Positions 2,576 to 25,062 of a stretch of 64,000 nt of DNA are shown here, one piece after another. Under the pieces are notes generated by a model that saw only the letters and a program-made list of their open reading frames with translations, was not told the origin of the DNA and made no database searches. A program made the position numbers and the translations under genes. Origin of the DNA: Galerina marginata (Eukaryota > Basidiomycota > Agaricomycetes > Agaricales > Galerinaceae); assembly GCA_023014335.1 (NCBI GenBank), contig JAECYW010000002.1, positions 4,340,001-4,404,000 on the forward strand. Direction: 5' to 3'. Numbering within the stretch: the stretch's first letter is position 1; each line of letters starts with the position of its first letter.

Positions 2576-2577
2576 TC

Positions 2578-2745
2578 AAACTGCGTGTATGTTCCTCGCT
2601 GCGCGCATGTCCGTCGCTGCGTGTAAGTTCCTCGCTGCATGTAAGTTCCTCGCTGCGTAGATGTTCGTCGCTGTGCACATGTCCGTCGCTGCGTGTATGT
2701 TCCTCGCTGCGTACATGTGCGTGTATGTCCGTCGCTGCGTGTGTC
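2578..2745. repeat. Minisatellite of about 18 bp
   Basis: About eight imperfect tandem units of the form GTTCCTCGCTGCGTGTAT or GTCCGTCGCTGCGCGCAT follow one another. Units vary at a few positions and one spacer is longer, near 2712-2722. No gene is evident across it. Confidence 0.75.
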
Positions 2746-2804
2746 GATGAGTGCGCGCTCTTCGCGCGATCATCGTGACGAAGAGCGAGTCGATGTCTGT
2801 ATAT

Positions 2805-3203: not shown

Positions 3204-3510
3204 GTCGGCGCCAGCAGTGCGAGGTTTTTCCATCGTACGAAATAGTCGTATCGTCATCCGATTTTGCGAGAATCTATAATAGTTCGAATGTTTTCGGTAG
3301 GATTAAACTTGTAAGGAATCGAATCCCAAATAGATTGCAAATTGAGGAAAGAGGATGTAATTCAGAGAAGAGATCGTACACTGTTGATCCTACGACTAGA
3401 TACAAATAAACGAGCGAGCTTATATAGAGGCGAGGAGTGAGGAGCTGAGGTTGACGGACGTGTTGAGAATGGAACTAGAGGCTGACGAGTATTTACAGCG
3501 CTTCCATAAT

Positions 3511-4941
3511 CTAATGAGAATCGATTAAGAATTTCTCAATTTGGGAATTTGGAGCACGTGCACTTCGCCTATCATCGATCCGACGCTTCTCGTTCTCAAA
3601 CTCGGTACGTTGTGCAAGCAACTCTTGTCTATGCGCCAGCGCCGTCTCCTGAAGTTCGGTTTGTGCTTCTAGCAACCGGCCTTCGTGTTCGTCTTTGAAG
3701 TTCGCCCAGGCAGCCTGACGATCTCGCTCCGCCGCGGCAGCCTTGCTGCGTTCCTCCGTCAATTTCTTTTCAGTCTCCGCCCATTGATTTTGCATCCGCA
3801 TTTCAGCGTTCGCGAGCTCCTGTGCACGCTGCTCGAATTCTTTGCGGGCCTTCTCCTTCTCCTTCATTGCCTATTCCAGGGGAGTTTTTGCAGTCAATAC
3901 CGAAAAGATCAGAGTTGGGATTACATACGTCCTCTAGGCGCCTTCCAAGCTCCCTGCCGTCCTTTTCTTTCTCTCGCTGTAGCTGATGGAAAGCCTCTTC
4001 GTCAGGCTACCACGAAGGCCGGTCTTGCAGCAATAACATACCTCCTCAAGCTGCTTCCCGACAGCTTCAAGTGCCGTTTTGAGCGATGCCTTCTCCTTCA
4101 TAATATCGTCAGCTCGGCCTTTGCAAAAAGACGAAACTTGCTGAAATGACATACCGTTACAAGCTCCTCGCTTACTGTGTCGAACTGTCGCTGGAGCGCG
4201 TCCTTCTCTTCTTTAACAGCTGCGGCTAATTGCTCCCATTTTTTCCCCTTCATTCAAAACCCCAAGAAAATCTTGACAAAAAAGTTAAGAGAACGTACTT
4301 CAATCAGTTGAGTCGCCAGATCATCTCTTTGTTTGGATATGCCAAAAAGTTCTCTCTCTTGTCTTGCTACCTATAGTAACGAGCAAAGGGCCGTATAAGA
4401 CGACGACAGACATTACAAAAAAAATGCCTCACTTGACACTCGAGATGATCAAGGCCGCTTCGTAGAATCCGGACCTTTGATTTGGCCTGCCCTCCAAATA
4501 AGCAATGGTACTACGAAAGGACGAGCGGACACCCACGCCGAACTCATCGCGTTCTTCAACTACTCTGTACAACTCTTCTGTCCCAGTTTCACTGATCCCG
4601 CGCTTACGAAGAGGCCGGCCGCTGGCAATAATGTATTGCATGTCAGATTCTTCTACCTGGTTGACGGTAGAAGCCGAGGGCTGGTTTATCGATGCATTGC
4701 CAGATGCATGATCAGTCTGAAAGTCGATGAGCCAAAGAAAACTATAGCAGCCGGGTTGAAAAACGAAAGCAAGTAAAACCTGTCGTGAAATACTCACTAA
4801 AACTTCTATCCAACCGTTCCGAGTGGTATTTTTGTGGCCACTCCCAATTCCTTCCCCTACATCCGGGCCAGACGAAGACTTGGCCTCTGCGGCTCTGCCC
4901 CAACGTCCGGCGCAGAAGCAGGGACAGGGCGCAGCTCCCAC
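3511..4941 (-). CDS. Coiled-coil protein, many small exons (model approximate)
   Basis: Read on the minus strand, a chain of short open exons separated by introns of about 40-60 bp encodes charged, heptad-rich protein. Recognisable pieces include ...TEELYRVVEERDEF (about 4540), ARQERELFGISKQRDD (about 4350), KEKASLKTALEAVGKQLEE (about 4080) and a long last exon at 3867-3511. That exon is almost wholly helical, with KEKEKARKEFEQRAQELANA and later EFENEKRRIDDRR. A TAG stop lies at 3513-3511. The N-terminal part near 4900 is less certain, since frames change there. The exon style resembles the coiled-coil genes near 26, 28 and 40 kb, but the C-terminal GMSSDESD domain of that family is absent. 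It may be a truncated member or a separate coiled-coil gene. No enzyme motif is present. Confidence 0.55.
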
Positions 4942-5382
4942 AGCGTAACATCTTCCACCGGGCCTGTGCTCGTGAACTACGCTTTGAGCGGGGTCATGGG
5001 GAGCCCGCTCGTACTCGCATCGCTGTCCGTGCCGGAGTAAGTATTTGTTGTCGTATTACTGAGAATGAAGACTTACCTTACCTTGAAAGTAGTCGAGACC
5101 GCCGTTCATCAGCAGATCATCGTGATATTGCAGGACAAGTGACAACGGAAAATGCAAATACCCTGGGGGACGAGTACCTCCACGCACACCGTCGGCCTGC
5201 AAGTCAAGTGGGTTTCTATACTTTTCTGAGATGTAGCGGCAGAAGTTAACGACTCAAACAGCTTTTCTAATTATTTCCACTCCGACTTCATGACATATCA
5301 TATCACCTTCGCATCAAGATGCCTAACTCCAAAGTGAAACTATGAACCACGGTTTCAACCACCACACTTTCAAACCTGCTCC

Positions 5383-5620
5383 CAAACCGGTACCGAGCCC
5401 GTACGGTCACAAACGCCGACGAACGGGAATAGGAACACCGACAAATGGAAATGCCGCCAAACAAGAACATCATTAGGCGCCGGCGAATGGGAATGAACAG
5501 AATCTAACCGCCAAGCAAATAGGAATGCCGACAAACGAGAACACCAGCCAATGCGAGAACGTCATTGAACTTGAAGAAGAATGCTAATGGGAATGGGAAC
5601 GGGAACACAGTCAATCATTG
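5383..5620. repeat. Degenerate short repeats (GCCGACAAACGGGAACACC-like)
   Basis: Units of about 18-21 bp with the theme CCGACAAA-GGGAATG/ACACC recur about eight times with many substitutions. No open frame of note runs through it. It is most likely an old minisatellite. Confidence 0.5.
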
Positions 5621-5869
5621 ACCTCACGGCCATCAAGGTGAGCACTGTTTCAGTAAACTAGACCGCCCACCCGTACTTACCCAAGCTCCTCACAGCATCC
5701 CTCCTTTCCTTTTATGCTGACTCCCGCCTTGATGGCCAGACGGGTTCGGGCTTGAAGTGGCTGAACGGGAAATGCCTCGGGTGTAGTCACGTCAGTACTG
5801 CTAAGTAGACGTTGAACAAGTAGCATAGCATGTGTTTTGTATAGATATGATCAATATATTATCCCTCTT

Positions 5870-6115
5870 TGTCCGACTTTTGCTTGACTTTAGCACACTG
5901 AAATCAGACTGTTGTTTGACTTCTGTTTGACTTCTGTGGACTGCAAGAAATTCTCGTTTTTTCTGTGCCCTGCCGAGGCTGGGTAAAAGTCATACCATAG
6001 TCATACAGTAGTCAAAAAATTTAGTCGAGCTCTAGTCAGACTTCTTGCAAGTACGACTTTTGATTGACTTTGCCTGACTTTGCCTGACTTTTACCTGACT
6101 AATGCAAAATTTCCA
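5870..6115. repeat. TGACTTTTG/TGACTTTGCC low-complexity repeats
   Basis: Short units such as TTTGACTTCTG and CTGACTTTGC repeat on the plus strand. Inverted forms (AAGTCATAC, TAGTCAAA) occur between them near 5990-6030. The rest of 5040-6360 holds no gene that I can support. Confidence 0.55.
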
Positions 6116-6362
6116 TTTTTACTGAGCATCACTCATGTATGTAGTCCAGGTTTATGATTTATCATGTCTCGAGAAACGGTCATGTGATGTACCCGAGACG
6201 CGTCGCGCGATAAATAAACTCTGTTGACTTTGAACAGAGATAATAGAGCCATCCCACCTCGTATTCGGTCAATCCACATCTACTATAGCCTCAATGTCAA
6301 GATCCCGCCGTAACTTTGACTTCTAACATTCCGGACAATGCTAATGATATTTCTTTTGCTAG

Positions 6363-7469
6363 GACAAAAACGGCCCCGTGGTGTAATCCCCCCGCAAAAA
6401 ATCAGTTACAAACGTCAACTTAAACGGGCGTGGAAGCTGGAGAATAACAATTTGCTATTCTATAAGGTTGAGGTTAGTATGCATTGCGATTCCATCCGTT
6501 CCAACTTCATATTGTCCTCTAGATGTTCCTGCAAACCCTTGCCCACCAACACTTGTCATTGGCACGGACGGCATCAGTTCAAGGACAAGCTATCAATGAG
6601 ATTAAAACTGAGGTATGGTTCATGGTTTTCATTCTATCCTACAACCCTCATTTCTCTGGCACCAGCTTGTTCGAAAGTACCCAGACTCATTCATAGGACC
6701 AGACGGAGATGGGCACATGTATTTGGCTATGAGGTTAATCTTTTTGTACCACACAGCGGCGCGCGCCACCTCTAGGGCCAAGGTATGTTACCATCTGTTA
6801 TTTTGTGGTTGTATTCTGAGAGTTTGCACCAAGGAGGCCATCAACAAAAAGGTCAAGCAGGTTAGGACTTTGAGGGTTCGCACCAAGGAGACAGCTCCCA
6901 TGCCTCACAAAGTCAGCAAAAAAGTCAAGCAGGCTAGAGCAGAAACCAGTCAGCACATTCAAGCTGGTGCCAAGTCTCCTACGCGACTTGACACACAACC
7001 AGCACTTCCATGCACCAAAGCACTGGCCTCACATTCTCGAAAGGCACAAGCACTACCTCCACTAGTTACTCAAAGCCAACCAGAAAACCGATATCCCCGT
7101 TGGATAACAGCTGTCATTCCTCAGGCTGCTGCACAAAAACCACAAGTGACTTTACCAGCAATGCAGAATATTGGTGACGAGGTGGCTCTCCCGATAGGGT
7201 CCCCACTCAACAATGGCCCTTGTGACGTAGAGAAATTTCTATCCTCTGCCATTCCTGACATGTCTAGCCTTGTTGCTGACTTTGCCTACTTTGGTATTAC
7301 GGATGATTCTGACCTCCACACCATGTCGATCTGGCCAGATGATCGTATTCTTGCCGTGCTGGAAGATCTATCTTGTCAGAGACAAATCCATCTCAGTCGA
7401 ATGCAGATGTGGATTATCTTGCAACATTTAAAAACATATTTTGTGGAAGCAGGAGTTGTGGACAAGTGA
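6363..7469 (+). CDS. Hypothetical protein, multi-exon
   Basis: A 3' gene portion follows an acceptor (CTAG) at about 6359-6362. Exon 1 encodes ISYKRQLKRAWKLENNNLLF and ends at a GTTAGT donor after GTTGAG. Exon 2 starts ATGTTCCTGCAA and encodes MFLQTLAHQHLSLARTASVQ, ending at GTATGG. Exon 3 begins LVRKYPDSFIGPDGDGHMYL. After more small introns a long last exon encodes a Lys/Thr/Pro/Gln-rich linker. It closes with a compact acidic domain (FLSSAIPDMSSLVADFAYFG ... WPDDRILAVLEDL) and a TGA at 7467-7469. The layout resembles Agaricomycete hypothetical proteins that I recall, but no function is known. The 5' end is not resolved. Upstream lies only repeat DNA, so the gene may be truncated. Confidence 0.5.
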
Positions 7470-7840
7470 GGTCTACCTTCATGCCCCCCCATTGATGATA
7501 GGTGGTGGTACTCATAGGACATTGGGATCACTACTTGGTTCGCTCTCATTGTACTTTAAACTTTGTAGAACTGGATGTACTGTACTATAGCTTGAAAGCT
7601 TCTTGATAGTGTGAATTGGAGGTTCATTTATATGTTTAAGCAGTACAGACAAGGGAGATAAATGTAACTTGGCTTGCAAGTCAAGGAAAAGGAAATGAGG
7701 GTGACAAGGATATCTAATAAGGGTGTGGTATCAACATGGAAGCAAAACTGGGCCCAGGGTTGAAAAGGGCGGCCAGCAGCGCTCGTCGGGTTTGTGAAAG
7801 ACGGCCCCACTTTAACGGGGTATCACTGTTAACGTTGTCG

Positions 7841-8400
7841 TCATTGCTGATCACAACAGTGGGCATTGTGGTCGACCTGAGCTAGTGGTTTGGGAGTCGG
7901 ATTTAGATCCTTGGACCATTCTAGGGGCGTAGAAGGTGATAGTGGTGGCCGTGGTGTGCGGTTGAATGCAGAGGTGGAGGTAGAGATTGACGATGGTATG
8001 GGTCGGTCAGGGGAGTTCATGTTTTGGTTGCCATTAACAGATTGAAATGTCGGGACTGGTGTTATCATTTGAAGCGGAAGTTCCATCGCAAGTCGATGAC
8101 CAGTTCAGGTCCGCCACGCAGCAGCACCGGGTTGGGCATCGCAACACAGTGTGTCAGGACAAGCCGCAAAAGGCGGAGGCATCTGTGACGGATTGGGTTG
8201 GGACAACAACGGCTATAACAACGTCAAACGACGAGGTGCAGGCACCGTTGGAGGAGACGGATACGTGGGCAATCCTCCATCGATGTGGGTGGAGGAAGCC
8301 ACGGTGATAGGGCCATGTCATGCACGTTGACGTTGAAGGTAGAGGCGATGCAGCGGCATCATATGATGTAAAAAGTCGAAAGGGCAATTGGAGGACTATA
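7841..8400 (-). pseudogene. Pro/Ser-rich coding remnant
   Basis: On the minus strand, 8086-7841 is open from an ATG and encodes a Pro/Ser/Thr-rich segment (RTPRPPLSPSTPLEWSKDLN). The same frame upstream to about 8400 keeps a Pro-rich character (GGLPTYPSPPTVPAPRR) but contains several stops. The composition suggests a decayed low-complexity region of a longer protein. No domain is recognised. The stretch 7470-7840 holds nothing I can identify. Confidence 0.25.
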
Positions 8401-8520
8401 GAGAAAGCTGTGGCGGCATGATCTCACTTGCTTCAGTGTCGTAGGCAGTGGTGGAGGGTGGAAGCGGAGGCGGCAGTAGTTGGCGTCACGTCATCCGCAT
8501 TGACGCCCCATGCGGTGATG

Positions 8521-8951
8521 GATATGATGTGGCAGCCATCCGTCGCCCTCGTCCGAGCTCATGCCCTCATCTTCAAACAACTCGTAAAAGCTCTTCATAT
8601 GTTTCAACATCTAGATCTCCTCGGCCTTTCCTCGTTTACGTCATGAAAATGCCATGGCGGCGCAACAACATTGAGGGGGCGCAGGGCGCAGGAGATAAAT
8701 CGACCGAAAGCGGCGCAAGGACATGGACTTGTTCTCCAACAAGGGGGCGAAGCCAAGAAGAAGGATCCGGGATGGAATGAAGTACACGCGGAGCGGTCTC
8801 TAAGCTCCCGAAATCTCTCAACGAGAAAACCTGGCTTGCAACTCTGTCGAAGGAAAAGAAGGTCAAACTTCAGCCGCGAAAGGATGCTTCCATGTCAAAA
8901 CACTGCGACAAAGAATTGGAGCGACTGCTTAGAAAAGAGGCAACCAGGTGA
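8521..8951 (+). pseudogene. C-terminal fragment of the coiled-coil/GMSSDESD family
   Basis: Fragments in shifting frames match the C-terminus of the family copy at 39.85-42.7 kb. In order they read ALVRAHAL on the reverse strand, then VMKMPWRRNNIEG, then DRKRRKDMDLFSNKGAKP, then KLPKSLNEKTWLATLSKE, and finally CDKELERLLRKEA. At least two frameshifts separate them, so this is a dead 3' fragment. The 3' flank at 9037-9063 carries a partial TTATCAC...GTGATAA-type hairpin, as do the flanks of the copies ending near 17.0 and 42.7 kb. That suggests the flank was duplicated with the gene. Confidence 0.75.
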
Positions 8952-8989
8952 TTAGTATTTTTAGATAACGTAGTATGTATGAATAGAGC

Positions 8990-9540
8990 GACCGTACCTG
9001 GCAGACAAAACTTGAGAATGGGGAGGCGTAGGTCTGGTTATCACAGGAGCCATACGGGGTGGTCGGTGCTGCCCAAATGCGCCATCGAAGTTCTTCTGGA
9101 GACGGCATTGTGCCAAGTTGAGCATAAAGAGGAAGCGAATCCGGCAAAGCTTCTCAATTGGGGGAGATAGAGACATGGTCATCCTTCATTATCTGGTAGT
9201 TTGGTTTACGATCGCGAAAAAAGTATGACGCCGGTTTTTGGTTTTGGGCATCTAATAGGGGCTAGAGAGAGAGAGAGAATGAGAAGGTTAGAACGTATTG
9301 GATAGTCGGATCGCTGCAAGTACTTACACACATATAATATTATGTGGTGTGGGATGGGACTACATTCTTTATGACACAAGGGGAGTCCTCGCCTATGAGC
9401 GCGAGATGGACGGATGCGAGTCGGAGACCTTTCGTAAGTAGCATGTGCTGTATCGGTGAGTTGACGCCTTTGAACATGAATGTACCACCGACCAACCGTA
9501 AACGGTCACCGAGATCTAAGTAGAACCGTTAGAATAGTAT
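8990..9540 (-). pseudogene. 5' fragment related to the gene starting at 43,632
   Basis: The minus strand here is clearly similar to 43,440-43,800 on the plus strand. It includes the intron ending in a CT-rich tract and TAG, and the shared piece LGTMPSPEELRWRIWAAPTT. Here it breaks off after TTPYGSC. An upstream exon on the minus strand, about 9540-9330, reads as a sensible protein (GGTFMFKGVNSPIQHMLL, then ASVHLALIGEDSPCVIKN). The fragment abuts the dead 3' end at 8951. I recognise the family only as an Agaricomycete hypothetical. Confidence 0.6.
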
Positions 9541-10226
9541 TGTGGATAAAAGCGAGCTCGACACACCGCCTAACCCTCTCAAACCGTAAAGGATCCTGTT
9601 CTCCAACTCGTCTTCGCTGTTTTGCGATACAAAGCTTCCTGAAGAAAACGAGCAGCCTATATGGGCAGTTCAAGCGTCGAAACCGCTATTTTCTGTTGGT
9701 GGTGGTAGTGTGGGGCCACGCAAAGCAGAAGATGCCTAGAAGATCCCGCCAAGGCAGGACGGCTAGATCTCGAAGGTGATTTAACGTCGGCGTCGAAGGA
9801 AGTGGTTTGGCTTCATCTCCATCGGCAGAGCTGGGAGCGTTTACGGTCCGCCGCAGGCCAACTTGGAGGGAACACAATACTTGGGGTTGAAATCCCTGAA
9901 GAAACCGCGGAGGAACGTCGAGATGGGCGTCGTGCAAGTTGAGGTTGTTAGGAATGGCCGGTATTTGTCGCAGCTTACAGCAGATTGCAAAAAGGTTGAC
10001 ACTAAAGCGTCGTGAGAAGTTTGAAAGTAAATAGATGCAATTCAAACCCAATTCAAACCCTAAAATAAGACTTCGAGCCTCCATGCTAGCAACAGTGCTT
10101 CCAAGTATATTTCTGAAGTTACCAGATGATACATTTCATCCTTCTAGGACAGTTAGGGTCCTTTTTGTGTCTCAAGGGGTGAGGAAGTGTATGGGGAACC
10201 CATCTTTGACTGTGAGGTAACCCGAA

Positions 10227-10234
10227 GACCGAAT
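10227..10234. repeat. Target-site duplication GACCGAAT, left
   Basis: This octamer directly precedes the left terminus of the 6.05-kb transposon and is repeated exactly after its right terminus. Confidence 0.88.
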
Positions 10235-10257
10235 CAAGGGGGTGACAGTAAAAAAAT

Positions 10258-10312
10258 ATCTGACCTGGGGTCAGATTTTTTTTTAACGACCAAATGGCTG
10301 GACTAACTAACC
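10258..10312. repeat. Left subterminal hairpin and TGGACTAACTAACC box
   Basis: ATCTGACC at 10,258-10,265 pairs exactly with GGTCAGAT at 10,269-10,276 around a 3-bp loop. A T-run and AACGACC follow, then TGGACTAACTAACC at 10,299-10,312. The same box, also preceded by a T-run, lies at the other end in direct orientation. These are candidate transposase binding sites. Confidence 0.6.
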
Positions 10313-10384
10313 AGTGTGGGAATATACTTCTGTATATAGTAATATTACATAATTTGATCGGTTCAGTATCTACTCATGGCTGTT

Positions 10385-13300
10385 TCACTGACCCCTTCGT
10401 CGTTTCCGCGGCCTCTCATCTGCTGCTTGACACGATGAACACCTCCAATTACCGACTGCATACTCGAGCGCTACACACTCCAAGTGGAACTGCACTATAA
10501 GGTAAGTAAAGACACCTTTCAGCGCAAGTAACCATCACTTACCCATCGTGTCTCGCAACCCAGCGTCTTGCACTCGATAACGTCTTTCTCTGCTTCTATG
10601 GCCTGTTGGGAGACTGATTCCCCACAGATACATTCATAAACTACCGCTCTTCCTCTTCGCTTACGCATTGCACGGCCTTCGGTCTCCTTTGGCTTGTTGA
10701 CTCCACTTGGCTCGCCAGCGTTGATGCAACTTTCAACTACCGAACCCGGGTTCTGGACACCGCTGCTGGAATTTGGATTCCCACTAGATTTGTTGTGCGA
10801 CGCTGATGAGGATACAGACAGCTGAGAAATATAAATAGGTGAGCAAACATTTGATATAACAATGCCAGACCTGGAGACTTACCGTTTCTTTTAATCCACC
10901 AGTGTCCACAACCTCCGCAACTCCTGATGCAGCCTCTTCGCGAGTTGGGCCGCCATGCTCTTCACCGTCCAGCATGATAATATTGGCATCAGCGGGAGCG
11001 CAATCGATATTAGGCGGGTCCAGTCCCCCCACCTCATCCCAGGTTTCAACCCATGCGTTGACCTGTGCTTCGTCATCGTTGTCGCCGGCACCTTCATTGC
11101 CCTCAGGCTCGCCTTCACCTTCCTCATCCTCAGGCTTGCCTTCGACTTCCTCATCATCCTCAGGCTCGTCCTCGATTTCCTCTTCATCATCAGCTGCTTC
11201 GCTAACAAACAAAAACAGCACATTAGCGTGGAAATTAGAGTAGTTACACGTTTGGTGACTCACGTTAACGTCAAGCGAGAACTATGAGCTGCCGAAATTA
11301 CCAGAGGTGCGACCTTCTTTTTTTTCGATACTCGAGTTTTCTTTGTCTTCAATCTTTCGTTCCAGACGTTTTCCAGCCCTGCTTTCTCGGAGTTTCCGAT
11401 CTTCCATAAAGGTTCAATCTCGGGAAGAGATACATAGGGATGTCGGGAGATGATGTGTTTCCGCATGTTGTATCGCCATATGGCTGGTGAGGACGCTGGA
11501 CAATAAGGGCACTTGAGAGGAACATTAGAACACGGGCTCGACGCCGTAGATGTGGTCGCAGTGGCATAGTTGAAATATACTAGGTTGGCACACTGCGTAG
11601 CCTTTTCATCAATTTTTGGAGACCCACTAGTTCCCTTCCCTTTGCTGAGATAGAAAGTACATTGCCCATTTCTCAAGCAGAGACCACACGGCGCTTCCAA
11701 CCCCTTGACACGAGAGTCGTGCTGAATATGAGCGCCCATGTGCTGAAGAATTCGTTGACCAGCTTTTGGAAGATCAATTTGGCAGTAAGGACACTGCTTC
11801 TTTGAGAATAACTCCTTCTCTTTCAACTCGTTTTCACAGACAAAACATGCCTTGTCTAAACGAATAAAATTAGCAAAAATATTTTGAACAGGAGTTGAAA
11901 GAACTTGCCGCTCTCCTCACGGTAAGGGAAACAAGGAGACTGCTCCACCTCGGGAACACTTTTCCCATCTTCTCGAGTAAGGCGCTCCAGTAGTAGTGAA
12001 CCGATTGCCCGTAATGTTTGGCTATCGAAGAGATAAACCGGAGCGCCGGCTGTTCTTGTTGAAATATCAGGATTTACGGGCTCTACGAGTCGACCAGGGA
12101 CTCGATGACTTGATCCACGTTTGCTGGACCAGCGCCAGTCGTTTTTCAGTTCTGGGTCATCTTCGATAGTGGCAGGGATGAGATAGAGCATCTGAAATTG
12201 AACAGATGACGAAGGCTCGGACAAAAGGTTCACTGACAGCTGCTCATATGACTTGGAATCGAATGTTAAGTCAATTACCTCTCCAATACAAACAAAAAGA
12301 CGGCCTTCACACTTAAGGAGAGTGGCAAGTGGGTAATTCATTTTAACGGCAGGTAAATCGGAGGCAGCTTCGTCTGATTCAACGATGTCAAGTCGATGTT
12401 TGCTCTTGATAGCGTATCGAGGAATTTGAGCATATCGTTTGAGCCTGTCCCGAGATCCAGGCTCCTTGAGACGATTGAAGACTTCCCTCATGTAGCGAGC
12501 TTTCCAAACTTGTTCGCCATCGTGCTTGAAGAAAGGATCGTATTTCGCAACGGGCTCCTCTTCTGCTGCTGCATCCTCAAGGTCAGTCGCCAAAGGGCGA
12601 ACTGCGGCCGCGGGATCATAAGGTTGACCATCGTCAAAATCTTCTGCTGTGTCGTCGTAATCGTCCAGATCACGTTGCGCAAGAACAATATGCTTGCCAA
12701 AAGGTTGAAGCATATTAATATCTGGATTGTCTTGATCTTCAATTGCCTGAAGAACGCGATCAAGTCGCGGTACAGAAGTTTTGATGTCTTGTCGTCCCAT
12801 AAGCCAGCACGTTTTCAAATTGACCGTCGCGACTTCGACATTCCCCTTCCATGACGCAGGTTTAATGTGATCAACGTCTTTGTGGATCTCAAGACCCTCC
12901 TTTGACAAGCTGGGAAGCTTTAAGCGGCGCGGGGCACGATCCCATTCAGGATGCTGAGCAAGTATACTAGATACCTCTGTTGTACCAACCAGACGAAGAA
13001 CCAATTGCTGGATGTCGACGCTAGAATCGTTCCCAACCATAGTCCGAAGAATACCAAAAAGTTCTTCCAAACGATCTGTTCCAAGAAGAATTAAGAAAAA
13101 ACGGCCTGATGGATCGTCAACCTGAGCTTTTGCGACGCAGAAGTAAACATTTTTGATCATGATCATGAGATCAACGTAAAGTTGAGTTGGCATTAGGAGT
13201 GTACCGGCCCTGTCTTCGTGTGTCATGGCAAGAAGCATGTGAGCTGCACTGCTAAGCAAGATAAGCTGCTCCGTGAGCGAAAGTTCTATGCAAATATAGG

Positions 13301-15879
13301 GCAGTAGAATGTTGCGAAACAGAATTCCGAGTGTTCGAAAGGCTTCACGAGTATCTTGGAATCCTGGACCACGTGTGGTAGAGCCTGTCAGTAGGGATGG
13401 AAGACGCCAAATTTCGTGTAGGAGATCATAAGCCAGCTTGACATCTTGTTTATCATCCGGTTTCAGGATGCTGTTGACGTGGGATAAGGAAACATCATTG
13501 TCCAGAAGGTGGGACCGTATCACAGAAGGTAAAATATGAATTCCATGAACCTTAAGTCCTCGAAGGCGAAGGAGAAGATTTCGAAGACGTTTGAAAACAT
13601 GTTTATAGTCCTTATCAGCCGTGAGATCATCATCGCCGACTTCCAGATTCATGAGCGGGAGGCCAGCGAGCAAAGAATAAATGGGCGATGAGGCATCGAG
13701 TTGGTGTTTGAATGTCAGGATAGCAAATGCTTCTCCTCGTCGAGATTCTCCATCGGAAGCGAGACATATGGTCCTCAATTTCGAAACTCGGACGCCATCA
13801 ATTGCAGCGCGAACCACCAGAGAATGTTCCTTTCCAGATTCTTTTCCACATTGGCCAGAGATCAACACAGGGAAGGCGCTATAAAGTCGGTGGTCTTCAC
13901 TCAATATACCGATTGCACCAATTGTTGCCTAGGTAGTGGATTTAAATTTAGCCAGGTTGGTGTGAGACGATAAGATCTGACTTGCTTACATTACTGGCAA
14001 GATGAACGTCGCCATCAATAACTTTGTCAAACAACAGGTCTACTTCTTGCTTCGACGTGTAGTGCAAGCTCGCACTGCCTCCGTGCTCCCGGCAGACACC
14101 TAGGATATTATTTGACTTGTCGTCCCATCTCGGCCTTTCCTCCACCTTAATCTCGTCAAACATCAAGACCTGGTGAACTACACTCGCTGTTTGAAGCATC
14201 TCCGAAACCATCGAAGTTGAAGCCACTGTATTTGCTTCAACCTCTGAAACTGTTGGACGGTGTGGAGATGCGACGAGGGGTGGAATCATGGACATACGGT
14301 TCAATGTGCGGCGCGATGGTAAGGCTAGTGATTTGTGTGCAATATCTGCAACACGCCCACCACCTAATCGATACATCAATAGTGCACGACGGCGGTCTTC
14401 GACGGAGTAGATGCGTGTGCGATAAACAGCTTGGGCTGCATCGTCATACATCTTTATTAATCCTCGGATCCCTCTCTTTTGAGCTATTGCACTCCTCACA
14501 AGGCGTTCAACCCTTTCCACCTTCCCGCTTCCAATAGCCATAATCCAGTCCTTGTGAGCGTCAAGGGCCCCTGCTTTTGCAACAATTTTACGTGCATCAT
14601 TGAGTTTGCGTAGCCGAAGTGAGTTGATCTGACTTGACTTCTCCCGTACAATGTTGATAAGTCCCGCAGTCCCGTGGTATGCAAAAGGGGCGTTTCGATG
14701 AATGCCGTCTCGCATTCGGTCAACGATCCGAAGGAGGCTGGTGTTTTGGGTGAGTAATTCACATTGGTTGCAGATTTTCCGTCCTGAAATGTGTTTCTCG
14801 CAACCTCGAGCATGGACCGTGAGCTGGCCATCGACAATCATGCAATCCCAAGGATCTCCCATGTCCTTATGCAGCTCAAATGGATACGCCGAATATGGAC
14901 TCACGCCAGCAGGCGTTTCGACTTGCACACCACTGCAGTCAAACATCTCCATCGGCACAAGTTTCTTTTCGACTCGTACGGTGACAGCTTCAACATCAGG
15001 AAGGGCATCAACGTCGATAGGGATTTGAGTGGGTGACTCGGTTACATTGCTATTGCTGACGTGTGGGATATCTGTAGGATCAGATAGTGGTTGAACTATG
15101 GCATTCAATGGTTGTAAGGCCATCCTAGCAGAGAAGCGTCAGGTTCCATAAAAACTAGTGAGGAACTTCAAAAAGGAAATCATAACTTACACTTCGTCTA
15201 TTGCAGAAATCATGCGCTCAACCTTGCCCTCAATTAATGCGCCTTGGATTCCATGGTGCGAGACAAGGTAATTCAAAAATCCATGGAACCCAATGAGCCC
15301 TCTCTGTCCCCGTACGACCAGTTTTCGAAGCTCCGCAGGTTCTTTTTGAAGAAGCGTGTTCAACGGTCCGTCCCACTTTTCCCATGCATCTTCCCCTTCT
15401 GAAACACAGTTTCTCGGATCACCAGAAAATGCAGCCAAAGGGTGATCTAATCCTGCTTCCTTGATGTTCTCATCAAGCGCGTCAATTCGGCCACGCAGAT
15501 TCTTTAGACATGCTATTGCAACAGGACAAGCCGATGGAATTAAGCTTGGTGGTATCGGCCCATCGTGAATGCGAGTAGACGACGATGAAATAATGGGTTG
15601 TATACGCGGTGGAGCTGTGACTGTTGGGGGAACCCTTTGGGCTCGTGGGGCAAAGAACGAGTTCGCCTTTTTCTGTGTTTTCTTGACCACTTCGGCTTCC
15701 TTCCACTTCTTCAGATTTTTATTGCACTGTTCGCTTGGCATATGTCGAGTTACGAGATTCGGGATGCCAACTTTGCCGACTTTGATATACGTATGACATT
15801 TAGGACAAAGTACGCAGCCGTCTGGTCGAATATCCGATTCAGTAGGTATCTCGTATTCTGGCGGGTCTTCGAGCGGCAT
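10385..15879 (-). CDS. P-element/THAP9-like transposase candidate with C-terminal PHD finger
   Basis: Seven exons can be joined without stops: 15,879-15,191, 15,124-13,990, 13,928-11,921, 11,855-11,264, 11,201-10,883, 10,821-10,543 and 10,489-10,385. Introns are 53-66 bp with GT..AG borders. A GC donor at 11,908 is an alternative for the third intron. The protein is about 1,708 residues. An N-terminal zinc motif is C22-x2-C25-x2-C28...H45...C52. The likely RNase H-fold triad is D553 (MFDEIKVEE), D667 (LASDGESRRG) and E896/E897 (GTDRLEELFGILR). The last motif has the DxLExxFgxiR form seen in P and THAP9 transposases. Further C-x2-C pairs lie near 1281-1302, including a C2H2-like CPYC...HIISRH unit. 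An acidic stretch and a basic KRRGR segment follow. The C-terminus is a PHD-type pattern: C1645-x-C1647-x17-C1665-x4-C1670-x5-H1676-x2-C1679-x11-C1691-x2-C1694. The role is inferred from motifs and from its position between TIRs. Confidence 0.8.
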
Positions 15880-16204
15880 CTTAGACAAAAATTTGCAGTC
15901 GGTATATGTAAATTGTGAGTGTTATGCTGTCGAGAATGAGTAGGCAGGAAGGGTAAACAGAGGAAAAGGTTAAAGTTCATGTTCTATTCATCCAACGAGG
16001 TGAGCCACTGGCCACTGGGCCATCGCGAGCGACATCTATGACCAAATTCGGCAAGATATGAGCAGTACAACGATCTAATTATAGAAATCTGTGCCGTGGA
16101 TTGCTTGATCCTCTGCGTTTGGAGCACATTGTCCTTGTGGAGGTTAAATTAGACGAACAATGGTGTATCCAGGCCCTTCTGCCTCAGAATTTTGACTCAT
16201 AATT

Positions 16205-16243
16205 TTTTTTTTTTAAGGGCCTGTTGGCCTGGACTAACTAACC
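16205..16243. repeat. Right subterminal TGGACTAACTAACC box
   Basis: A T-run, AAGGGCCTGTTGGCC and TGGACTAACTAACC (16,230-16,243) repeat the left subterminal sequence in the same orientation. The outer TIRs, by contrast, are inverted. Confidence 0.6.
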
Positions 16244-16281
16244 GACCTAATGTCACGTGTTTTTTTACTGACACCCCCTTG

Positions 16282-16289
16282 GACCGAAT
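16282..16289. repeat. Target-site duplication GACCGAAT, right
   Basis: This is the exact second copy of the left octamer, immediately after ...CACCCCCTTG. Confidence 0.88.
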
Positions 16290-16923
16290 CTAGGGTTTGC
16301 TAGTCAACCCCTTGTCAACTCTTGTTCATTGCTGGGCGGATTCAAGCTCATACCTCCCCAGTCCATGGCTTAGGGCATCTAATCTACATCTGAAGATATT
16401 CACAGAGCTCGACGGTCTATTTATTGAGCAAACGAGGTGGAATGCAGTAAACCCTAAGGTTGGGTTTCTCTTCTGTCTCTTCACTTCCGAAAGCGGTAGT
16501 GTCAACCTTTTTGCAATCGGCTGTAAATACATTCACTCACATTCGGCTGTCATAATTTCGGTCACTTGATATTCACTGTCATCGATTATCCTAGTTATGC
16601 ACTTTTGCTGATGCTAAGGCATAGTCCCCCCTCCTTGTGGAATGCCCGTCTTGATCATGAAGTTCCTCTTGAACCGACATTACTGATTGCTAAATCCTCA
16701 TGCACGGTTTATAAGTCGAATTCAGGGGGAAGCATAACGCATGGCTGCGTACTTCTTCTAGTTATCCTCACGCATGGTACTGCGGGCTGGACTTGGCCAA
16801 AGTTTCCTGTCGTTTGCTGACTTCTTCCTCCTCTCTTAGGCTCTCTGTCTTGGGGTTTACGTTGTTAAATATCACTTGGACAGCTCTGGTGATACTTGTT
16901 TTGCACCACTGGCCATTCACAGC

Positions 16924-16955
16924 GGTTATCACCTGGCCCTCTCCGGTGATGATTC
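16924..16955. repeat. TTATCAC...GTGAT(A)A hairpin (K type) downstream of coiled-coil copy B
   Basis: GGTTATCACCTGG-CCCTCT-CCGGTGATGATTC is the reverse complement of the hairpin at 42,774-42,803. It lies at the same distance past the 3' end of the homologous gene, so it belongs to the conserved 3' flank. A second, weaker unit lies at about 16,870-16,900. The rest of 16,526-17,080 shows no gene. Confidence 0.65.
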
Positions 16956-17082
16956 GGACTCTAAATCCACTCCATAGTCAAGCTTTACAGCAGGTATGTT
17001 TAATCTCTTCACCGTTTATCGCCCAAATACCGATTATTATACCACCTCCTTCCTAAGAGCTGCTCCGCCTCTGTGTCGGAGT

Positions 17083-19935
17083 TTCCTGACGTGGAAGTCA
17101 TCCCTTGGGCTCTGAAGTTGGGCCTTTCGTTCATTCGACAGAGCAGCCAGCCAGGTTATCTCGTAGAGGGACTTAGGGAGCTCTGGAGTCGGTCCCCATC
17201 GAGAATTCTTTCTTCCCTGCTCCCTGGCTTTGCTCCCTTGTTGGAGAACAGCTCATTGTCCTTGCGCCGCTATCGGTCGACGAACCTCAGTTCCGCCTCA
17301 ATGTCGCGCCCCACGGCATTGACATGTCGTAGTAAACTTCGTTTCCGGCCTCATCCACGTCGCTCTCGTCCGAGCTCATACCCTCATCTCTAAGCAGCTT
17401 GAAATATTTCTCCATATACTCCCAGAGTTCGACATCTGAGTCTCCTCAATCTTTTTTTCTCGCAATGGTCTTCCCAATAATTTCGATGCGACGTGCGTAT
17501 CTCTGAAAAAATGCGTCAGCTTCGCCAAAGAAGAGGTGTTGAAGCACATATACTAATCCGCCTCGATGTCGCGCGCCCAAGCATTCCCACTTCCTTCTTC
17601 CTCGCAGCCATCCTCTGTTCGACCTCGTTCAAGGTTTCGATCTGTCCATCCTCCTTGACTTTTGGTAGGGCGTCCTTCCAAACTGTCCTTGCACGTTGCA
17701 CTTGGTCGCGAAGATAGGCCTCTGAACGTTGGGGAAGTGATTCCTAAGCCTCAGTTTGCAACTTGGTGCGCATAAGGTCAATTATTAGGTCAAGCACTTG
17801 GACATTCCATTTAGACGAGATGTTTCCTCTCATGTCGATGCGAAGATCCGTTGCATCTGGCACTGAACCTTTTCCGTTGTTGTAGAGACAAACAGCATCT
17901 TTCTCGGGTGGGTCATGCAGAGCAAAGTCTTCGAATGCGTTGACGCTGAAGCAGTCATCCCTGACTTGTCGGGCGAGATTCTATATTCGTTGTAAGTAAT
18001 TCGCTGACTAGATAAATCGAGAAATTACTGACAAGATAATTTTTCCTTTCAGAGGCTCATCGTTATCCTTCTCCTCTTCCATTCGTTATTTCGCAGACTT
18101 TTTGCGAGAGGCGCTGGTGGGCTTTTTAGAGTTCTGGGGACCTTTGGTGAATTTGGCCTTCCAGATCGATTTCCCGGTCAACCTTTTTGCAAGGTCGTTC
18201 ATAAAGCCGCCAATCATCGCCTGGAATTCTTCCTTTGTCATGCGTGACGATTGTTTGTTGCTGTCGCCGTCGTCGTCGCCATTATCTTCCTCGTCTCCTT
18301 CTCCACCGTCGTTTCTGCCCGTCTGCTTGCGTTTGCCATGCCATTTGCGGCGTCTCTCATCTACGTCGTCCTTTTCGACATCCTCATCGACGTTGTCATT
18401 GTCTTCGTCCCGTTTTCTGTCAGCAACACAGGATAAGATAATAGGTTAATGAAACCCACAGAGACTTCAACCAACACAGTCGATGTTCTGACCCCCCTCC
18501 TTGCGTTTAATTTCCTTCCAGTTTGCTCCAGTCGATTTGTGGGCCAATTTGGATGGATTCTGTGCCTCGGATGATGTGGCCAAAGATTGTCTTCGTCCTG
18601 CACCCGCTTCAATGATTTCGTCTCCCATATGCGTAGCGCTTGCCATTTCCTGATCGGTATGGACAGCAGGTTCTCTGCCAGGATTTGCATCGGTCGGTTT
18701 CTGGCCTTCGGGACGTGCGTTCTGCGCAGATTGACCTGTTTGAGTTTTAATCTCAGGCCCCTTCTGAGAAATAATTAATTCAAGTTAAAGGAAAGGCTCG
18801 AGTCACCCACTCGTTGCCCATGGAGTCACTCTACTTTTTGTACTTTTGAACCAATGCTGCCATTTGGAGCTCGCTATCTGCCTGCATCAACTATCAACCA
18901 TCATGTTCAAGATCGGTTCAAGCCGGAATAGTCACCCGAAGACGCTCAAATCTGTCCTTCCACTCTTTCTTCAGCTTCTCAGCCTCCGCTCTCCGTTCCT
19001 CCTAACCAGGTTGTCACTCTCCATCCTAGTATGGAACTATGATTAAATTTACCTCCATGCGCACGATTGCTGTTTTTGCGGCCTGTTCATGTCGTTCAGC
19101 GATGGCGACCACATCCACAACCTGATCCTTCCCTCGCTATGAAGGCGTTAGTAAAGGCTGAGCAAATAACTTTAATTTGACTCACTTCAATTTGCTGGAT
19201 TCTCGCCTCTGCTTCCGCCTCCCTTTTCTGGGCAAGCACCGCCTGTCCTCCCTTTTCCTTAGCTAGCTTGGTTGCTTCAAGAGCCTCAGCCTCGCTTTTC
19301 CGAGCAAGGGCCGCCCCTCATTCCTTCTCCTTCCAGGCCAGGTCAGCGGCCTCAAACGCTCGTTGTTTATCATACAGGCTGGAGATAAATTGACATTGTC
19401 TGATCAAACCCGACGAAACGCACCTCTATCTGGTCTAATTTTAACTAAAAGTCCTTTTCCCTCTCACTACTCTCCATCAAGCTTGCGGATCGCGCCTCCC
19501 ACTTCTTCAGCACTCCTCGATACTTCTTGAGCATTGTTTGTCATCTCGTCAAGCGCTGCTTTCTCAGCGTCCAATTCTAGCGTCCTCGCGTCTTCCCATT
19601 GACACGCTCGCGTTTCTAGCTCTTCCTGGAATTGTTTGATCTTCTTCGTCTGCTCCTTTGGAGGTCTTCTTGGAATACCCGCATCCGTCATGCAATTTGT
19701 TGTTTGGTGGTCCATCCCTTCTTACGCGCATTTTTTTAATTCTTGGATGGGTCAGAGTTGAAGGTTCAGTGGAAGCCTGTCCACCGGCTTGCCTCTTCAT
19801 TGGAGCTGCCCCGCCTTTGAACCAATGGGCCAGGGTCTGGAATAGTGTCGTGATCAAGTCGGAATTTAAAAACAGTCCTACTGGGTACGGTATTGGCGTC
19901 GTGGCGCTCGTCGTATGCCTGTGACGCGTTTAATG
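17083..19935 (-). pseudogene. Coiled-coil/GMSSDESD family, copy B (decayed)
   Basis: The minus strand aligns exon by exon with copies C and E. Its order is a proximal exon ending ...WFKGGAAPMKR, a coiled-coil exon (FQEELETRACQWEDARTLEL), the KSEAEALEATKLAKE exon, the AIAERHEQAAK exon, an acidic DDD/EED stretch, the LAKRLTGKSIWKAKFTKG segment, then LRDQVQRARTVWKDALPKVK and the C-terminal domain. In-frame stops are visible, for example TAG where copy C has GAG near 19,449 and TGA near 19,317. Intron positions are retained, so the copy arose at DNA level. Homology with copy E continues about 200 bp past the 3' end to about 16,860. Confidence 0.75.
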
Positions 19936-22005
19936 CACCGGACGTCTCTTCTTCTGCCAGTACTCCTACGCCGTCTGATATTTCAAACTTGCCGCCAAGT
20001 ACACATATCTCTCAATTGAGGGATACCATTCCGCAAGTCTCGTACTTTACTACACAATCGCTAAGCAATGTTAACCACTCTTCGACATAACTAGAGCAGT
20101 CTCTCCATATCCAATTGGCAAAGACACCGGTGGGGTCGCTGAATGCCGTCCTGAGGATGTTTCTCGCAACAGGAGTAGGCACCAGAAGAGGCCCAAAGCG
20201 TGGCAGAAGAAACACCTGGGTTGTTCGAAGTCTAGAGCAGCGGCGGCTAGATTGGCGAAGAACCTGAGTAATGGGGGATGGGTGTCAAGCGGTCCCATTG
20301 CAGGCGGCAACGTTATTGAGAGTGTGAATGATTGGGGCAGTATGACTGCATTACTGCCCAAACACTCAGGTGTGTTTTTCTTCCTGTTTTGAAGTGGGAT
20401 TCCTTTTTTTGACAGAAGTTTGTTGTCCTAGCACTGTCGACTATCAACTCGAGTTGGCGAATCTGTGGGCTGTTCGCTCGCCGCATCTACCCCTTGTGTC
20501 GTCGCAGAATCCGAATCTTCGTCGTCTTTCTCGGTGGTTGCTGGCTTTTGGCCTCTTCCTCAAATTACCGGATGCTGATCAGGAAGACGTAGCCTGGAAC
20601 GCACCAGAGCTGTTCTCCGCCGAGGCAGCCTGGGGAAAACCAAAGGTGTCTTGAACTGAGCGTCAGCTCAAACAAGTTTTGATGTTTACTCGTAGTCATA
20701 CTATTTATTTATAGGTGTTGAGAGAGAAGCAAATGACTACACTTTCGACGAAGCCTCCTGAGGACAACCGTCGATGCAAGAACTGAGGCTAATGCAGAAG
20801 CCGAGGCTGGTAATTCATGAGGTGTCGACGTCTCATCCTCATTTCCTCTCGTAGCCTCGCATACGATCATTGTCAATTCCTCGAAGAATCAACCGAATCT
20901 CGATCAGGAAGACGTTGTCTAGAACGTACCAGAGCTGTTCTCCGCCGAGGCAGCCCCACTACCATTCTGCTAACCTCTTTCAGGTCGACATTCGGCAACC
21001 AGTGCTAATTAATTAAGGCGAAGACTGAGTAGAGTTGGGTATGAAACGCTCAGAGGGCCCAAGACTGACATAACTTGTGTGTTTTCCGTTCATTTTCCCT
21101 CGCCCTTGGTCTTGTCCGACATTTTCGCGCTCAGGCAACATATGTTTTGACTGCTGCCCTACCAGCGGACGACAACGGAGGGTGATTCAGATTGGCCCAC
21201 CTTCTGGGTGTACGCTGTCTTGAGTTTGGGCACTCATCAACGGTTAGATCAGCGGGGAGAAACGATGCGGGTTTGATGTACCCTCACCACACCCGCACCA
21301 CCGACGGAGCCTGAACCCAGGACTCAAGATGGCGTGAAATGGACAACTGAGGCGAAGTACGATAGGCGGGAGCGGGCGATTGGATAGTCAAGACGCCATC
21401 CGTGTCATCGGACGGCGGGCAGCTGGGTAAGTCTTCCCTTCCACCTTCTCCTCACGGACGGGGTAGTTAATTCCCGCCAGTCTCGCAGCCTTCCTCTCCG
21501 AGCCTCGCTCACATCCCGCACTCCGCACCTCAGTCATCTGCGCTTCCAGGTCCAGCTTCAACCTCCGAAGGCACAAATTAGGGGGCGATCGGTCCTGAGG
21601 ATGAGGTGGAGCTTTGAGAATGATCGGAAGCGAGGTGAGTGAGTAGTCGACAACGACGATATCATGAACCGTTACTTACTTTGTTATCTTACTCTAGAGT
21701 CGACATGGCGACTGCGCTCGCGGAACATCGCATACCGAGCTCTTGAATGCCCGATATTGATGTGAGGTAAGTAAGTTTTCGAACACATATGAACTGATCA
21801 AGAACTGATACTTACAAACTTTTAGCTCTGATAGGCCCCTCCCATGTACTGTCTGATGAGGTTCTTCCACCCTCCAGCTTGCTATCCTGCTGACATCATC
21901 TTGAGGACAACAGCATAGACAAGATAACCCTTTCCCACAAGCCCCAACTGCCCCCAGCACTGGTCCAATTTCTAACCTCACTGTGTGAGTGTTGGCCCAA
22001 CGTTC
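19936..22005. repeat. Intergenic stretch with a duplicated segment of about 55 bp
   Basis: A segment reading ATCAGGAAGACGT...ACC AGAGCTGTTCTCCGCCGAGG...AGCC occurs at about 20,578-20,632 and again at about 20,904-20,957. A short plus-strand frame near 19,893-20,090 is Ser/Pro/Thr-rich. Between 21,000 and 22,000 I see only small inconclusive frames. No gene can be supported. Confidence 0.45.
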
Positions 22006-22220
22006 ACAACTAACTTGAAGAGGCTGCTTTACCTTCCATCATTTTACTTTGGCCAAAGTTTGATACCTGCTGCCATTTGATATTCTCATTCACAATGCAT
22101 ACACATAGCAAAAAATTGGACTCATGTATGTGATACAAAGCAATGGCCCACAAGTGAAGGTAATTGTCAAAAATTGAATGAATCTGAAAATGGTTGATAC
22201 AAAATCCAAGAAGAATAGTG

Positions 22221-23180
22221 CTACTTGTCTTCCTCTGGGTTTTCCTCATCTTCTCCCTCAATTCCTCCTTCTGCATCTGTGTCATACAAGTCAACATCTT
22301 CTTCAGGCATAAGCATCCAAGGTGATGGCTTTCCAAATGGTATTCTATCACCAAAACCCTCTGGTCTGATATCTATTGAGTTCCAACTGCTTGTAGTGGC
22401 AGACAATGAGGCTCCAGTTGTTTTGTGTGATATGCGTTCATACAGCTTGTTTGAACCAGTCCAATAATAATCGCCTATTCCTGTTTCTTCATCATAGCCA
22501 TGGAACAGGTATACTCTTGAGACATGGTTGTTTTCCTTGAACCAATGATCCACCAAGGGGCTGAAGACCCTGTTTGCAATTGCAAGTGGTGTCTTTAGCA
22601 AAAACACATTGAGGGAAGTGCAGGATGAGATTAAAGGAATCCATAAAGGACCATCCCAAGGATATGCAGCAGTCTCATTCTACATGTGGAGCAGTGTGAA
22701 TTGAAGATCAAAGACAAGTGACATAAATAGACATACATCTTCCACAGAACAAATATATTTCACTCGGAGTATCTGCAAACGCTGAAGGGCAATTTTCCAG
22801 CCAGGTGTCTGCAACTCTTCTAAGAAGTTTGGGCAATGTCCACAGTGGAGGTTTAGCTCTGTTATTCCTGATGCTGACAGGGTATCACCCAGTAAGCAGG
22901 ATAACTCAGAGCTATCTGGAATGGAGACTTCTAAAAGGTAGAGACTGCCAAAGTTGACTATGCCACAGAACCTTTCATCAAAACCTTTGGATAGGCCAAT
23001 GAACTTCTCCACAGCTTCATCATCTTCTAGTTCGGCATGCTCCTGGTTACCAACCAGCTTCCTACAAATTCGGTGTTGAGAAATGAATGCTCGATAAGTT
23101 TTAGGGAGGTCCTGTTTGATGTTTGAACAAAGGTAAAAAGCGAGAATCTCATCACGAAGTTCCTGTGGGACTTTGGTCAT
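22221..23180 (-). CDS. F-box/LRR-like hypothetical protein
   Basis: Two exons, 23,180-22,737 and 22,679-22,221, join in phase 0 across a 57-bp intron (GTATGT...TGTAG) and give a protein of about 300 residues. The N-terminus starts MTKVPQELRDEILAFYLCSN, which has the look of an F-box-like helix pair (P-x-E-L...I...L). The middle has an LRR-like rhythm (LSASGITELNLHCGHCPNFL). The C-terminus is acidic (DLYDTDAEGGIEGEDEENPE). Such proteins commonly act as substrate receptors of SCF ubiquitin ligases, but the F-box match here is weak. The frame is intact. The flanks at 23,190-25,060 hold no other gene I can support. Confidence 0.6.
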
Positions 23181-23189
23181 GGGTCAGTA

Positions 23190-25060
23190 AATGAATAAAA
23201 TTCAAGTTGAAAGTATGGATCATGCATTGGGCAGGAAGGGCTCTTATGTGTTCTGGTTTGCTAGGTGTCGGTGCCATGAGATGAGTGTAGTTACTAGTGC
23301 TGCTGCCATCGCGTGGTTGGAATCCTCGTTCCCGATTCGGGTATTTACCTGTGTTATCATTATTAGATCTTGGGTTCTTGCTGTGGTTACTATTGTTACT
23401 ATCATGTGCAACGGGATTCAAATGGACCGGGAGATTCAAAATCGACTTTGTAGCTTCCACAACACACATTTTGGCCAAATTTTTTGCACATTCTGAATGC
23501 CTTACATCTCAGCTCCACAAATATGTAAAAATATTGAGGAAGAACTGAGATGGTGTTGTTGTGGACACTGCGCTTTGGTGAGAGCTTACGAAAATTTTGA
23601 CTAAAATGTTTCTCAACCTTCAACGACTTCGAGTTTAGACACCAGATTTTGAGAATACTTTCTAATTGCAGTTAAGAATGTGCGTACCAAAAATCAGGAT
23701 ATATGAGTAAGTTTTGCCAAGAGATGTGGATGGAAAGGTAGAAAGGCGTGACAAAATCGTGACAAATCGAATATTCTCCCCTTTCGGTTTGGTGGGAATC
23801 TCCGTGACTTTGCGTTACTTTCGATTTGCATCTCCTTGATTTTGGGACCTTCAGACGCGGAACTGTCCCGGTGCTCTTTATGTTCATCCTTTCCTGAAAA
23901 TTTTTAGAGATAGCGGTATAAGATATGTTTGTTTATGGATGTACCAAATTTTGAGGCCAAAGAGCATGAACTCATGGCAAACCGCTTCAAATACAAAATT
24001 TTTTGAATCTCCTTGCACTTGATAGTACTATTTGATATCTATCTACAAGTGTTTGGGGCTGCGCCGCGCTCTGTTAGACGAACGTCTCGTAAATGCAAAC
24101 TTAAAGTTGTGTTTATCAGTGAGGACTCTTTATCCAGGACTGATGACTCTAAAACTCTAAATTAAAAAGGTAGGAATACATTCGTACTATGTCGATTGTT
24201 TGAGTCGTTTGGAGTCAAGATCGGAAGAAGACGAATATACTGTGATGGACGTAGAACGCAGAAGAAAGCAAGAAAGGATGGAGGCATGGAGAGCAGTGAA
24301 GACGGCAATGGTTAAGAGGATGTAAGGCTCGAAGGAGAAAAATTCGTGAATGTGCTGGAAGGCTGTGGTCGAAGCGGGGCGCGGCATATCGGAAAGAGAC
24401 GGCAAGTGGGGCTCAAGCAGGGGCTCGGCACTTGCAAAACCACGGCCTGTGATCCGTGCTTATGTGAAACGTTCTCATCCGCAGAATTTGGCGGATGGGA
24501 AAAGGAATGTTCGGTGACGTTCTTCTCGCCATAAGATTATATTCTTCTTATGTCTTCAAGAGACTCGGGCTATTCTAAAAAGGTAACCTCGATAGACCAG
24601 TTGAAAAAAAGTGGGGGTTCGTTCTCTGATCTCTTAACACCACGGTTATGCGATATATACGTGAGTGAGTCGGGACGGGATGTTTGGGTGGATGGCTGGC
24701 AGGTCCAGGACTGGTGTGAGTAGTCTCCTCCACGGAAGCTTCAACCGATGCAGGAGGTGCTGTCCCAGACTACAGCGAAAAAAGTCAGGGGTTGAAGTCA
24801 GAAAAGCAACTGCATACATACTTGAACAAGGGATATAATATCCTCGGTTGGTCGCTCATCTTGAAAGTTTTCGGAATCTGCCTCCCCTCAGTCATCACGA
24901 GAGCTAGGTTCAAAGTCTTGGCCGGATAACTTGGTTCAGATGCTCCAGGCCACGCTGTTCCTCGGCGACGATGACCGCGGGCTCTGCCACCGGATACTCT
25001 GGTGCATGACGTGAAAAATCATCTATTGAGAATGAAGAGGGACGAGAGTGAGGTTTGACT
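23190..25060. other. No gene recognised
   Basis: Only short frames without motifs are present on either strand. AT-rich segments near 23,900-24,050 alternate with GC-rich ones. No long repeat or RNA gene was noticed. Confidence 0.4.
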
Positions 25061-25062
25061 GA

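Follow-up and report, generated by a model that had tools for sequence, protein, structure and literature searches.

The closest described systems are the P elements, whose 31-bp terminal inverted repeats (TIRs) are accompanied by 10-bp transposase sites 9 and 21 bp away, and whose transposase contacts GTP through eight residues, K385, K400, V401, S409, F443, D444, N447 and D528; this use of GTP is described as unique to P transposase among transposases and integrases (accessible part of PMC7776569). Within the Dikarya, P elements with 8-bp target site duplications (TSDs) and Repbase entries are reported from rust fungi (accessible part of PMC3164196). Here we analyse a 6,047-bp element of the mushroom Galerina marginata, which occupies positions 10235-16281 of a 64,000-nucleotide stretch of DNA (the window; C12:4340001-4404000 in the analysed assembly of 69.3 Mb and 43 contigs) and carries inverted ends, a flanking 8-bp duplication and one long gene. 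A first-pass annotation made from the letters alone had described it as an apparently intact transposon with a P/THAP9-like, PHD-bearing transposase. We conclude that it is very probably an autonomous cut-and-paste DNA transposon of a diverged P-superfamily branch from mushroom-class fungi.

Ends, copies and insertion sites

Counted from the tips, the two TIRs agree at 10/10, 21/22, 26/30 and 31/38 nt, so that the first description of near-identical 30-bp ends holds for the outer 22 bp and is slightly generous for 30. The flanking duplication, GACCGAAT, is exact on both sides, as annotated.

A search of the genome yielded 26 two-ended copies, of which 25 have an exact 8-bp TSD and one a 7/8 match. 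This count was built on pairs of a subterminal 13-mer, TGGACTAACTAAC, and copies without the 13-mer at one end fall outside it. In a first set of two-ended copies the duplication was exact in 14/14; outside this set stood a split copy on C6, a copy on C40 with no recognisable left end (L029), and the copy at C40:3405257-3415954, whose duplication matches at 7/8 positions. A whole-genome DNA search gave two further full-length copies, L025 (5,998 bp) and L026 (6,009 bp), along with numerous short copies and, on C6 and C40, long copies that are broken. Copies of 10.7 kb (C40), 4.3 kb (C24) and 2.1 kb (C34) gave no transposase match and look like short copies carrying inserted foreign DNA. The split C6 copy lies in three pieces (G000 C6:1013124-1016064, C6:1041020-1041327 and C6:1062431-1065200), apparently reflecting rearrangement or misassembly through the element; its two 8-letter flanks agree once one is reverse-complemented, the pattern that an 8-bp duplication followed by inversion would give.

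The site of the window copy is also present without the element. The joined window flanks match C14:751600-752199 at 100% (600/600 bases) with a single GACCGAAT, and colinearity with C14 extends over window 335-10240 (99.94%) and 16282-26389 (99.99%), about 10 kb on each side. As the flanks of L026 occur only once and the window's right end is a multi-copy sequence, C14 may be either the other allele or a recent duplicate. Either way, the insertion came later than the divergence of the window and C14, or the element was removed cleanly from C14. L025 lies in sequence that, by eye, we take to be Helitron-like, and its site has two uninterrupted paralogues (96% and 89% identity). Empty sites sought in the genome for L026 and L015 were not found.

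With other copies and an empty site both present, the annotated ends proved to be those of a transposon: exact TSDs at 25 of 26 two-ended copies and a precise empty site show that the TIRs are not a chance resemblance. As read from these sequences, the transposon is apparently intact and recently mobile.

Every one of the 14 aligned copies has the 13-mer, a candidate transposase-binding site, near both tips: its places are fixed, its orientation is direct and its distances from the two tips are unequal. The two remotest short-copy groups share only 47-50% of their letters, yet keep its positions. It occurs twice in the window versus zero expected, and 58 times in the genome versus once for a reversed control; the 58 sites resolve into 26 same-strand pairs, the pair of the split C6 copy and four singles, and genome-wide there were no opposite-strand pairs within 12 kb. 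From the places of TGGACTAACTAAC alone we predicted the ends of 11 unseen copies: eight predictions were base-exact with an 8-bp TSD, and the other three were 1 nt off, their true ends being flanked by an exact 8-bp TSD. The element thus has a P-type end plan in TIR length (matching over 22-38 bp) and in its unequally placed internal sites.

Some further observations concern the copies and their surroundings. A second group of short copies, 524-546 bp long (L019-L024, L064-L069, L072, L075 and L076), has CCGG-type inner TIRs, with CAAGG tips and the 13-mer as in the others; among the copies examined there was no transposase-coding partner for this inner TIR. L026 (C2:602425-608433) sits in the 3' end of a flavoprotein-like frame that, by eye, continues across the joined flanks. 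The window copy itself lies within another repeat of about 500 bp (window 9973-10234 and 16290-16528), which carries inverted ends of its own, about 30 nt long, and has 90-93% copies at C43:2809541-2810030 and C43:404571-405068. Near the right end of the window, 62800-63600 recurs almost unchanged on C16, on C7 and at the end of C12, and has a 93% copy on C18; judged by these matches it is a recent multi-copy block, perhaps subtelomeric.

Table 1. Features of the element and its transposase gene, in window coordinates
Feature	Position	Strand	Remark
Left TSD GACCGAAT	10227-10234	.	single copy in uninterrupted segment C14
Left TIR CAAGGGGGTG...	10235-10272	+	inverted-repeat pair, end comparison
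13-mer TGGACTAACTAAC, candidate transposase-binding site	10299-10311	+	nt 65-77 from left end
Transposase gene, seven exons	10385-15879	-	1,708 (or 1,712) aa
Exons 1-3	15879-15191, 15124-13990, 13928-11921 (-11909 with GC-AG intron 3)	-	
Exons 4-7	11855-11264, 11201-10883, 10821-10543, 10489-10385	-	
C-terminal PHD-like C4HC3 finger, residues 1645-1694	10430-10632	-	spans exons 6-7
D893-x-x-E896, predicted catalytic	13065-13076	-	aligns with P D528/E531
Codon D667, predicted catalytic	13752-13754	-	aligns with P D303
Codon D553, predicted catalytic	14155-14157	-	aligns with P D230
N-terminal C2HC zinc finger, residues 22-52	15724-15816	-	CxxC..H..C pattern
13-mer TGGACTAACTAAC, same orientation	16230-16242	+	nt 40-52 from right end
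Right TIR ...CACCCCCTTG	16244-16281	-	inverted-repeat pair, end comparison
Right TSD GACCGAAT	16282-16289	.	exact match to left TSD

The transposase and its kinship with P

The annotated seven-exon gene was reproduced: with GT-AG introns it translates without interruption into 1,708 amino acids (aa). A GC-AG variant of intron 3 gives 1,712 aa, identical to the first model through residue 1277, and is favoured because the family consensus at this junction reads FPYRE..GKACF. The exon breaks recur in copy L025. In 16 exon-by-locus comparisons over exons 1-4, drawn from four other copies that count as five loci (two being halves of the C6 copy), the ratio of nonsynonymous to synonymous substitution (dN/dS, Nei-Gojobori) was 0.043-0.126; these values are rough, as dS was 1.0-1.8 and above 1 is near saturation. 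The low ratios indicate that the transposase protein has been maintained by selection. Within the aligned parts of exons 1-4, L026 has no stop, L025 has one (exon 2), and L028 and L029 have some. Only in the window copy was the whole gene found free of interruption, the other copies having been compared over exons 1-4.

One protein search returned at least 15 relatives and a profile search at least 128 family proteins. Among the matches listed, the closest relative, also from Galerina marginata, is 81% identical over 75% of the query. The named hosts of the listed relatives are Galerina, Mycena, Pleurotus, Laccaria, Lactarius, Auricularia and others, all of which, going by their names, we take to be genera of mushroom-class fungi; metagenome entries are unplaced. 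Where protein names were shown, they were 'hypothetical', 'uncharacterized' or, in three cases, PHD-type.

Profile-profile alignment placed this family with P. The P residues D230, D303, D528 and E531 fall on D553, D667, D893 and E896 in both alignment modes, as does the block D339-H342-K345-R348-N349 on D715-H718-K721-R724-N725, and both sets are nearly invariant. The landmarks from the helix-turn-helix (HTH) to DxxExxF line up in the same order as in P, and by alignment and secondary structure the predicted catalytic D, D and E, with DxxE following a helical insertion domain, are present. For the fold comparison, a model of the relative P0009 was set against PDB structures; it matched RNase H transposases, with the match to P 8 Z units above that to any other family. 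The transposase core is therefore homologous to that of P/THAP9, in agreement with the P/THAP9-like reading of the first-pass annotation, and the D553/D667/E896 triad it had proposed is upheld by both the alignment and the fold comparison. Its open choice between a fungal P-like element and a new superfamily can be narrowed, a diverged P-superfamily branch being the better supported of the two.

Several results weigh against this placement. The P0009 model, which stands in for the window protein, is of moderate confidence (pLDDT 66, pTM 0.54), and its TM-scores to P are modest, 0.56-0.58 depending on the target. No P-family Pfam model reached its cut-off (13.4-17.3 bits vs 24.6, eight proteins), and for the window protein PF21787 and PHD were unlisted even at E <= 10. 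When one P sequence alone was aligned with the family profile, the match was not significant (Prob 4.9, score 32.7), so that only a comparison between profiles reveals the homology. The nearly invariant P residue G541 maps to V/I. The THAP domain (PF05485) was not found in 16 members at E <= 1; many P homologues also list no PF05485, and THAP is therefore not defining for the P superfamily. Five of the eight P GTP contacts, K385, K400, S409, D444 and N447, are not conserved. Finally, mobility is read from sequence. Among solved structures, a sequence search with exon 3 gave no matches, and the family profile found only seven sigma-factor HTH entries (E >= 0.12).

At the GTP contacts, only V401 and D528 are clearly kept, and F443 is uncertain. 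K400 is replaced by D in 55/58 proteins, K385 is K in only six, and S409 is mostly K/R/H. The block that holds K400 and S409 aligns without gaps; the F443/D444/N447 region aligns differently in the two modes and counts for less. From these alignments, the GTP site of P appears degraded or never present here.

The protein carries candidate fingers at both termini. The N-terminal CxxC..H..C pattern is found in 51/124 family proteins, many of them partial, and the C-terminal C4HC3 pattern is common to 9/35 relatives of at least 1,550 aa. The PHD-bearing reading of the annotation is supported by the C4HC3 pattern and by a full-length match of the isolated C-terminal piece to PF00628 (positions 1-47, E 0.0039, 17.6 bits) that is below the cut-off of 24; PF00628 is unlisted for the full-length protein, and for 16 members at E <= 1.

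Elsewhere in the genome, L057 (C39:322055-322216) gives a weak PF21787 match within a 1,085-aa open frame and may, on this match, represent another subfamily whose open frame is long.

Alternative placements

The alternative that survives best is a separate superfamily sharing only an ancestor with P, that is, an element with a P-like core, neither THAP nor GTP site, its own ends and cofactor-free RNase H cut-and-paste. The weak Pfam matches to the P family, the five unconserved GTP contacts and lack of a THAP match, a protein about twice the length of P (751 aa), and the confinement of listed relatives with a named host to mushroom-class fungi all speak for it. It is nevertheless unlikely, given that the landmarks from HTH to DxxExxF keep the order of P, that the fold match to P stands so far above the others, and that the element is like P both in the length of its TSD and in the unequal spacing of its subterminal sites. 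The two readings differ chiefly in rank. By the homology of its core, its fold, its predicted catalytic residues, its TSD and its end plan, the element belongs to the P superfamily in the broad sense. It lies outside the canonical P/THAP9 clade, since a THAP domain and most of the GTP contacts were looked for without success.

A second alternative makes the element a hAT or KDZ (Kyakuja-Dileera-Zisupton) transposon with a superficial resemblance to P. Both groups include elements with 8-bp TSDs; among the KDZ elements, which are fungal DNA transposons, such a TSD is made by Zisupton and by Zisupton-1_PGr of the Dileera lineage (accessible part of PMC12730594). We regard this as very improbable. 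The genome has 135 matches to the KDZ model PF18758, none inside the element; at E <= 1, Pfam showed neither PF18758 nor hAT in any of 16 members; the fold match to the hAT transposase Hermes is far below that to P; and alignment with KDZ by hhalign scored 21 (Prob 0.3), a weak control, as it drew on only three KDZ open frames. Membership in KDZ and hAT was thus rejected.

That the gene is a host gene or a domesticated transposase amid chance or dead repeats, as the few long-form copies, the breaks or stops in other long copies and the purifying selection between copies might suggest, is scarcely credible beside 26 two-ended copies with TSDs, an empty site and a second long copy, L026, in which exons 1-4 are free of stops as far as they align.

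CACTA membership was rejected as well: the profile comparison that the annotation had suggested for Transposase_21 (PF02992), as for hAT, gave no match in the 16 members at E <= 1. The window holds such a gene elsewhere, an 807-aa open frame at 36943-39363 (-) with a PF02992 match above cut-off, which marks it as a CACTA/Plavaka-like transposase. A 402-aa open frame at 54266-55471 (-) has a weak Retrotrans_gag match below cut-off.

Proposed mechanism and comparison with known systems

As a branch of P, the element would work as follows. Its two inverted ends would be paired by the transposase, which probably recognises the direct-repeat 13-mer via the N-terminal C2HC finger, the HTH or both. 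The RNase H-like centre D553/D667/E896, computed from fold and residues and predicted to be split by an all-helical insertion domain, would cleave and join DNA, and insertion would leave the 8-bp target duplications observed at the copies. Short relatives, which share these ends, may be mobilised in trans. A role in reading chromatin, either to choose targets or to control expression, is probable for the C-terminal PHD-like finger, and GTP dependence is probably absent or altered.

More tentatively, and at somewhat less than an even chance, the mushroom branch works without GTP altogether, with a P-fold insertion domain lacking the nucleotide site, a C2HC finger that takes the place of THAP and reads the direct-repeat 13-mer at its unequal distances from the ends, and a PHD finger tying integration to chromatin. 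If so, GTP use in P would be either a derived addition or a feature lost here. In any case, a large group of relatives in which most GTP contacts are replaced offers a natural comparison for the gain or loss of a cofactor role. The family also adds a widespread transposon clade whose named proteins have so far been hypothetical, uncharacterized or PHD-type, and its clean ends, short relatives, apparently intact gene and recent insertion provide a member that could be tested in mushrooms. In the titles and abstract beginnings of the matches listed we recognised no account of this mushroom clade; Repbase and most of the subscription literature lie outside this scope and may hold one.

Among known systems, Transib/RAG1 transposases give a weaker fold match than P, and their TSD is 5 bp. 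KDZ elements (Zisupton, Dileera, Kyakuja) had no sequence similarity to the mushroom element that we could find. Rehavkus also has a transposase with a PHD finger, but is a Mutator-type or Mutator-related element with a 9-bp TSD (accessible part of PMC6446971). The rust-fungus elements P-1_PSt, P-1_MLP and P-2_MLP of Repbase likewise represent the P superfamily in basidiomycetes, the Melampsora ones with an 8-bp TSD (accessible part of PMC3164196); they were compared by description, and no rust protein was named among the 120 relatives listed. The fullest likeness is to the P element and THAP9 (6P5A, 6PE2), which share the HTH, a split RNase H domain with D-D-[D..E], the helical insertion domain, the DxxH..K..RN block, the 8-bp TSD and short internally deleted relatives. 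The end plan of P, with TIRs of about 31 bp and unequally spaced internal sites, is also similar in size and spacing, the features on which it was compared. The mushroom element differs from P in its TIR sequence, in having a 13-mer where P has a 10-bp site, in a protein of about 1.7k residues, in the replacement of K385, K400, S409, D444 and N447, and in carrying N-terminal C2HC and C-terminal PHD-like fingers with no detected THAP domain.
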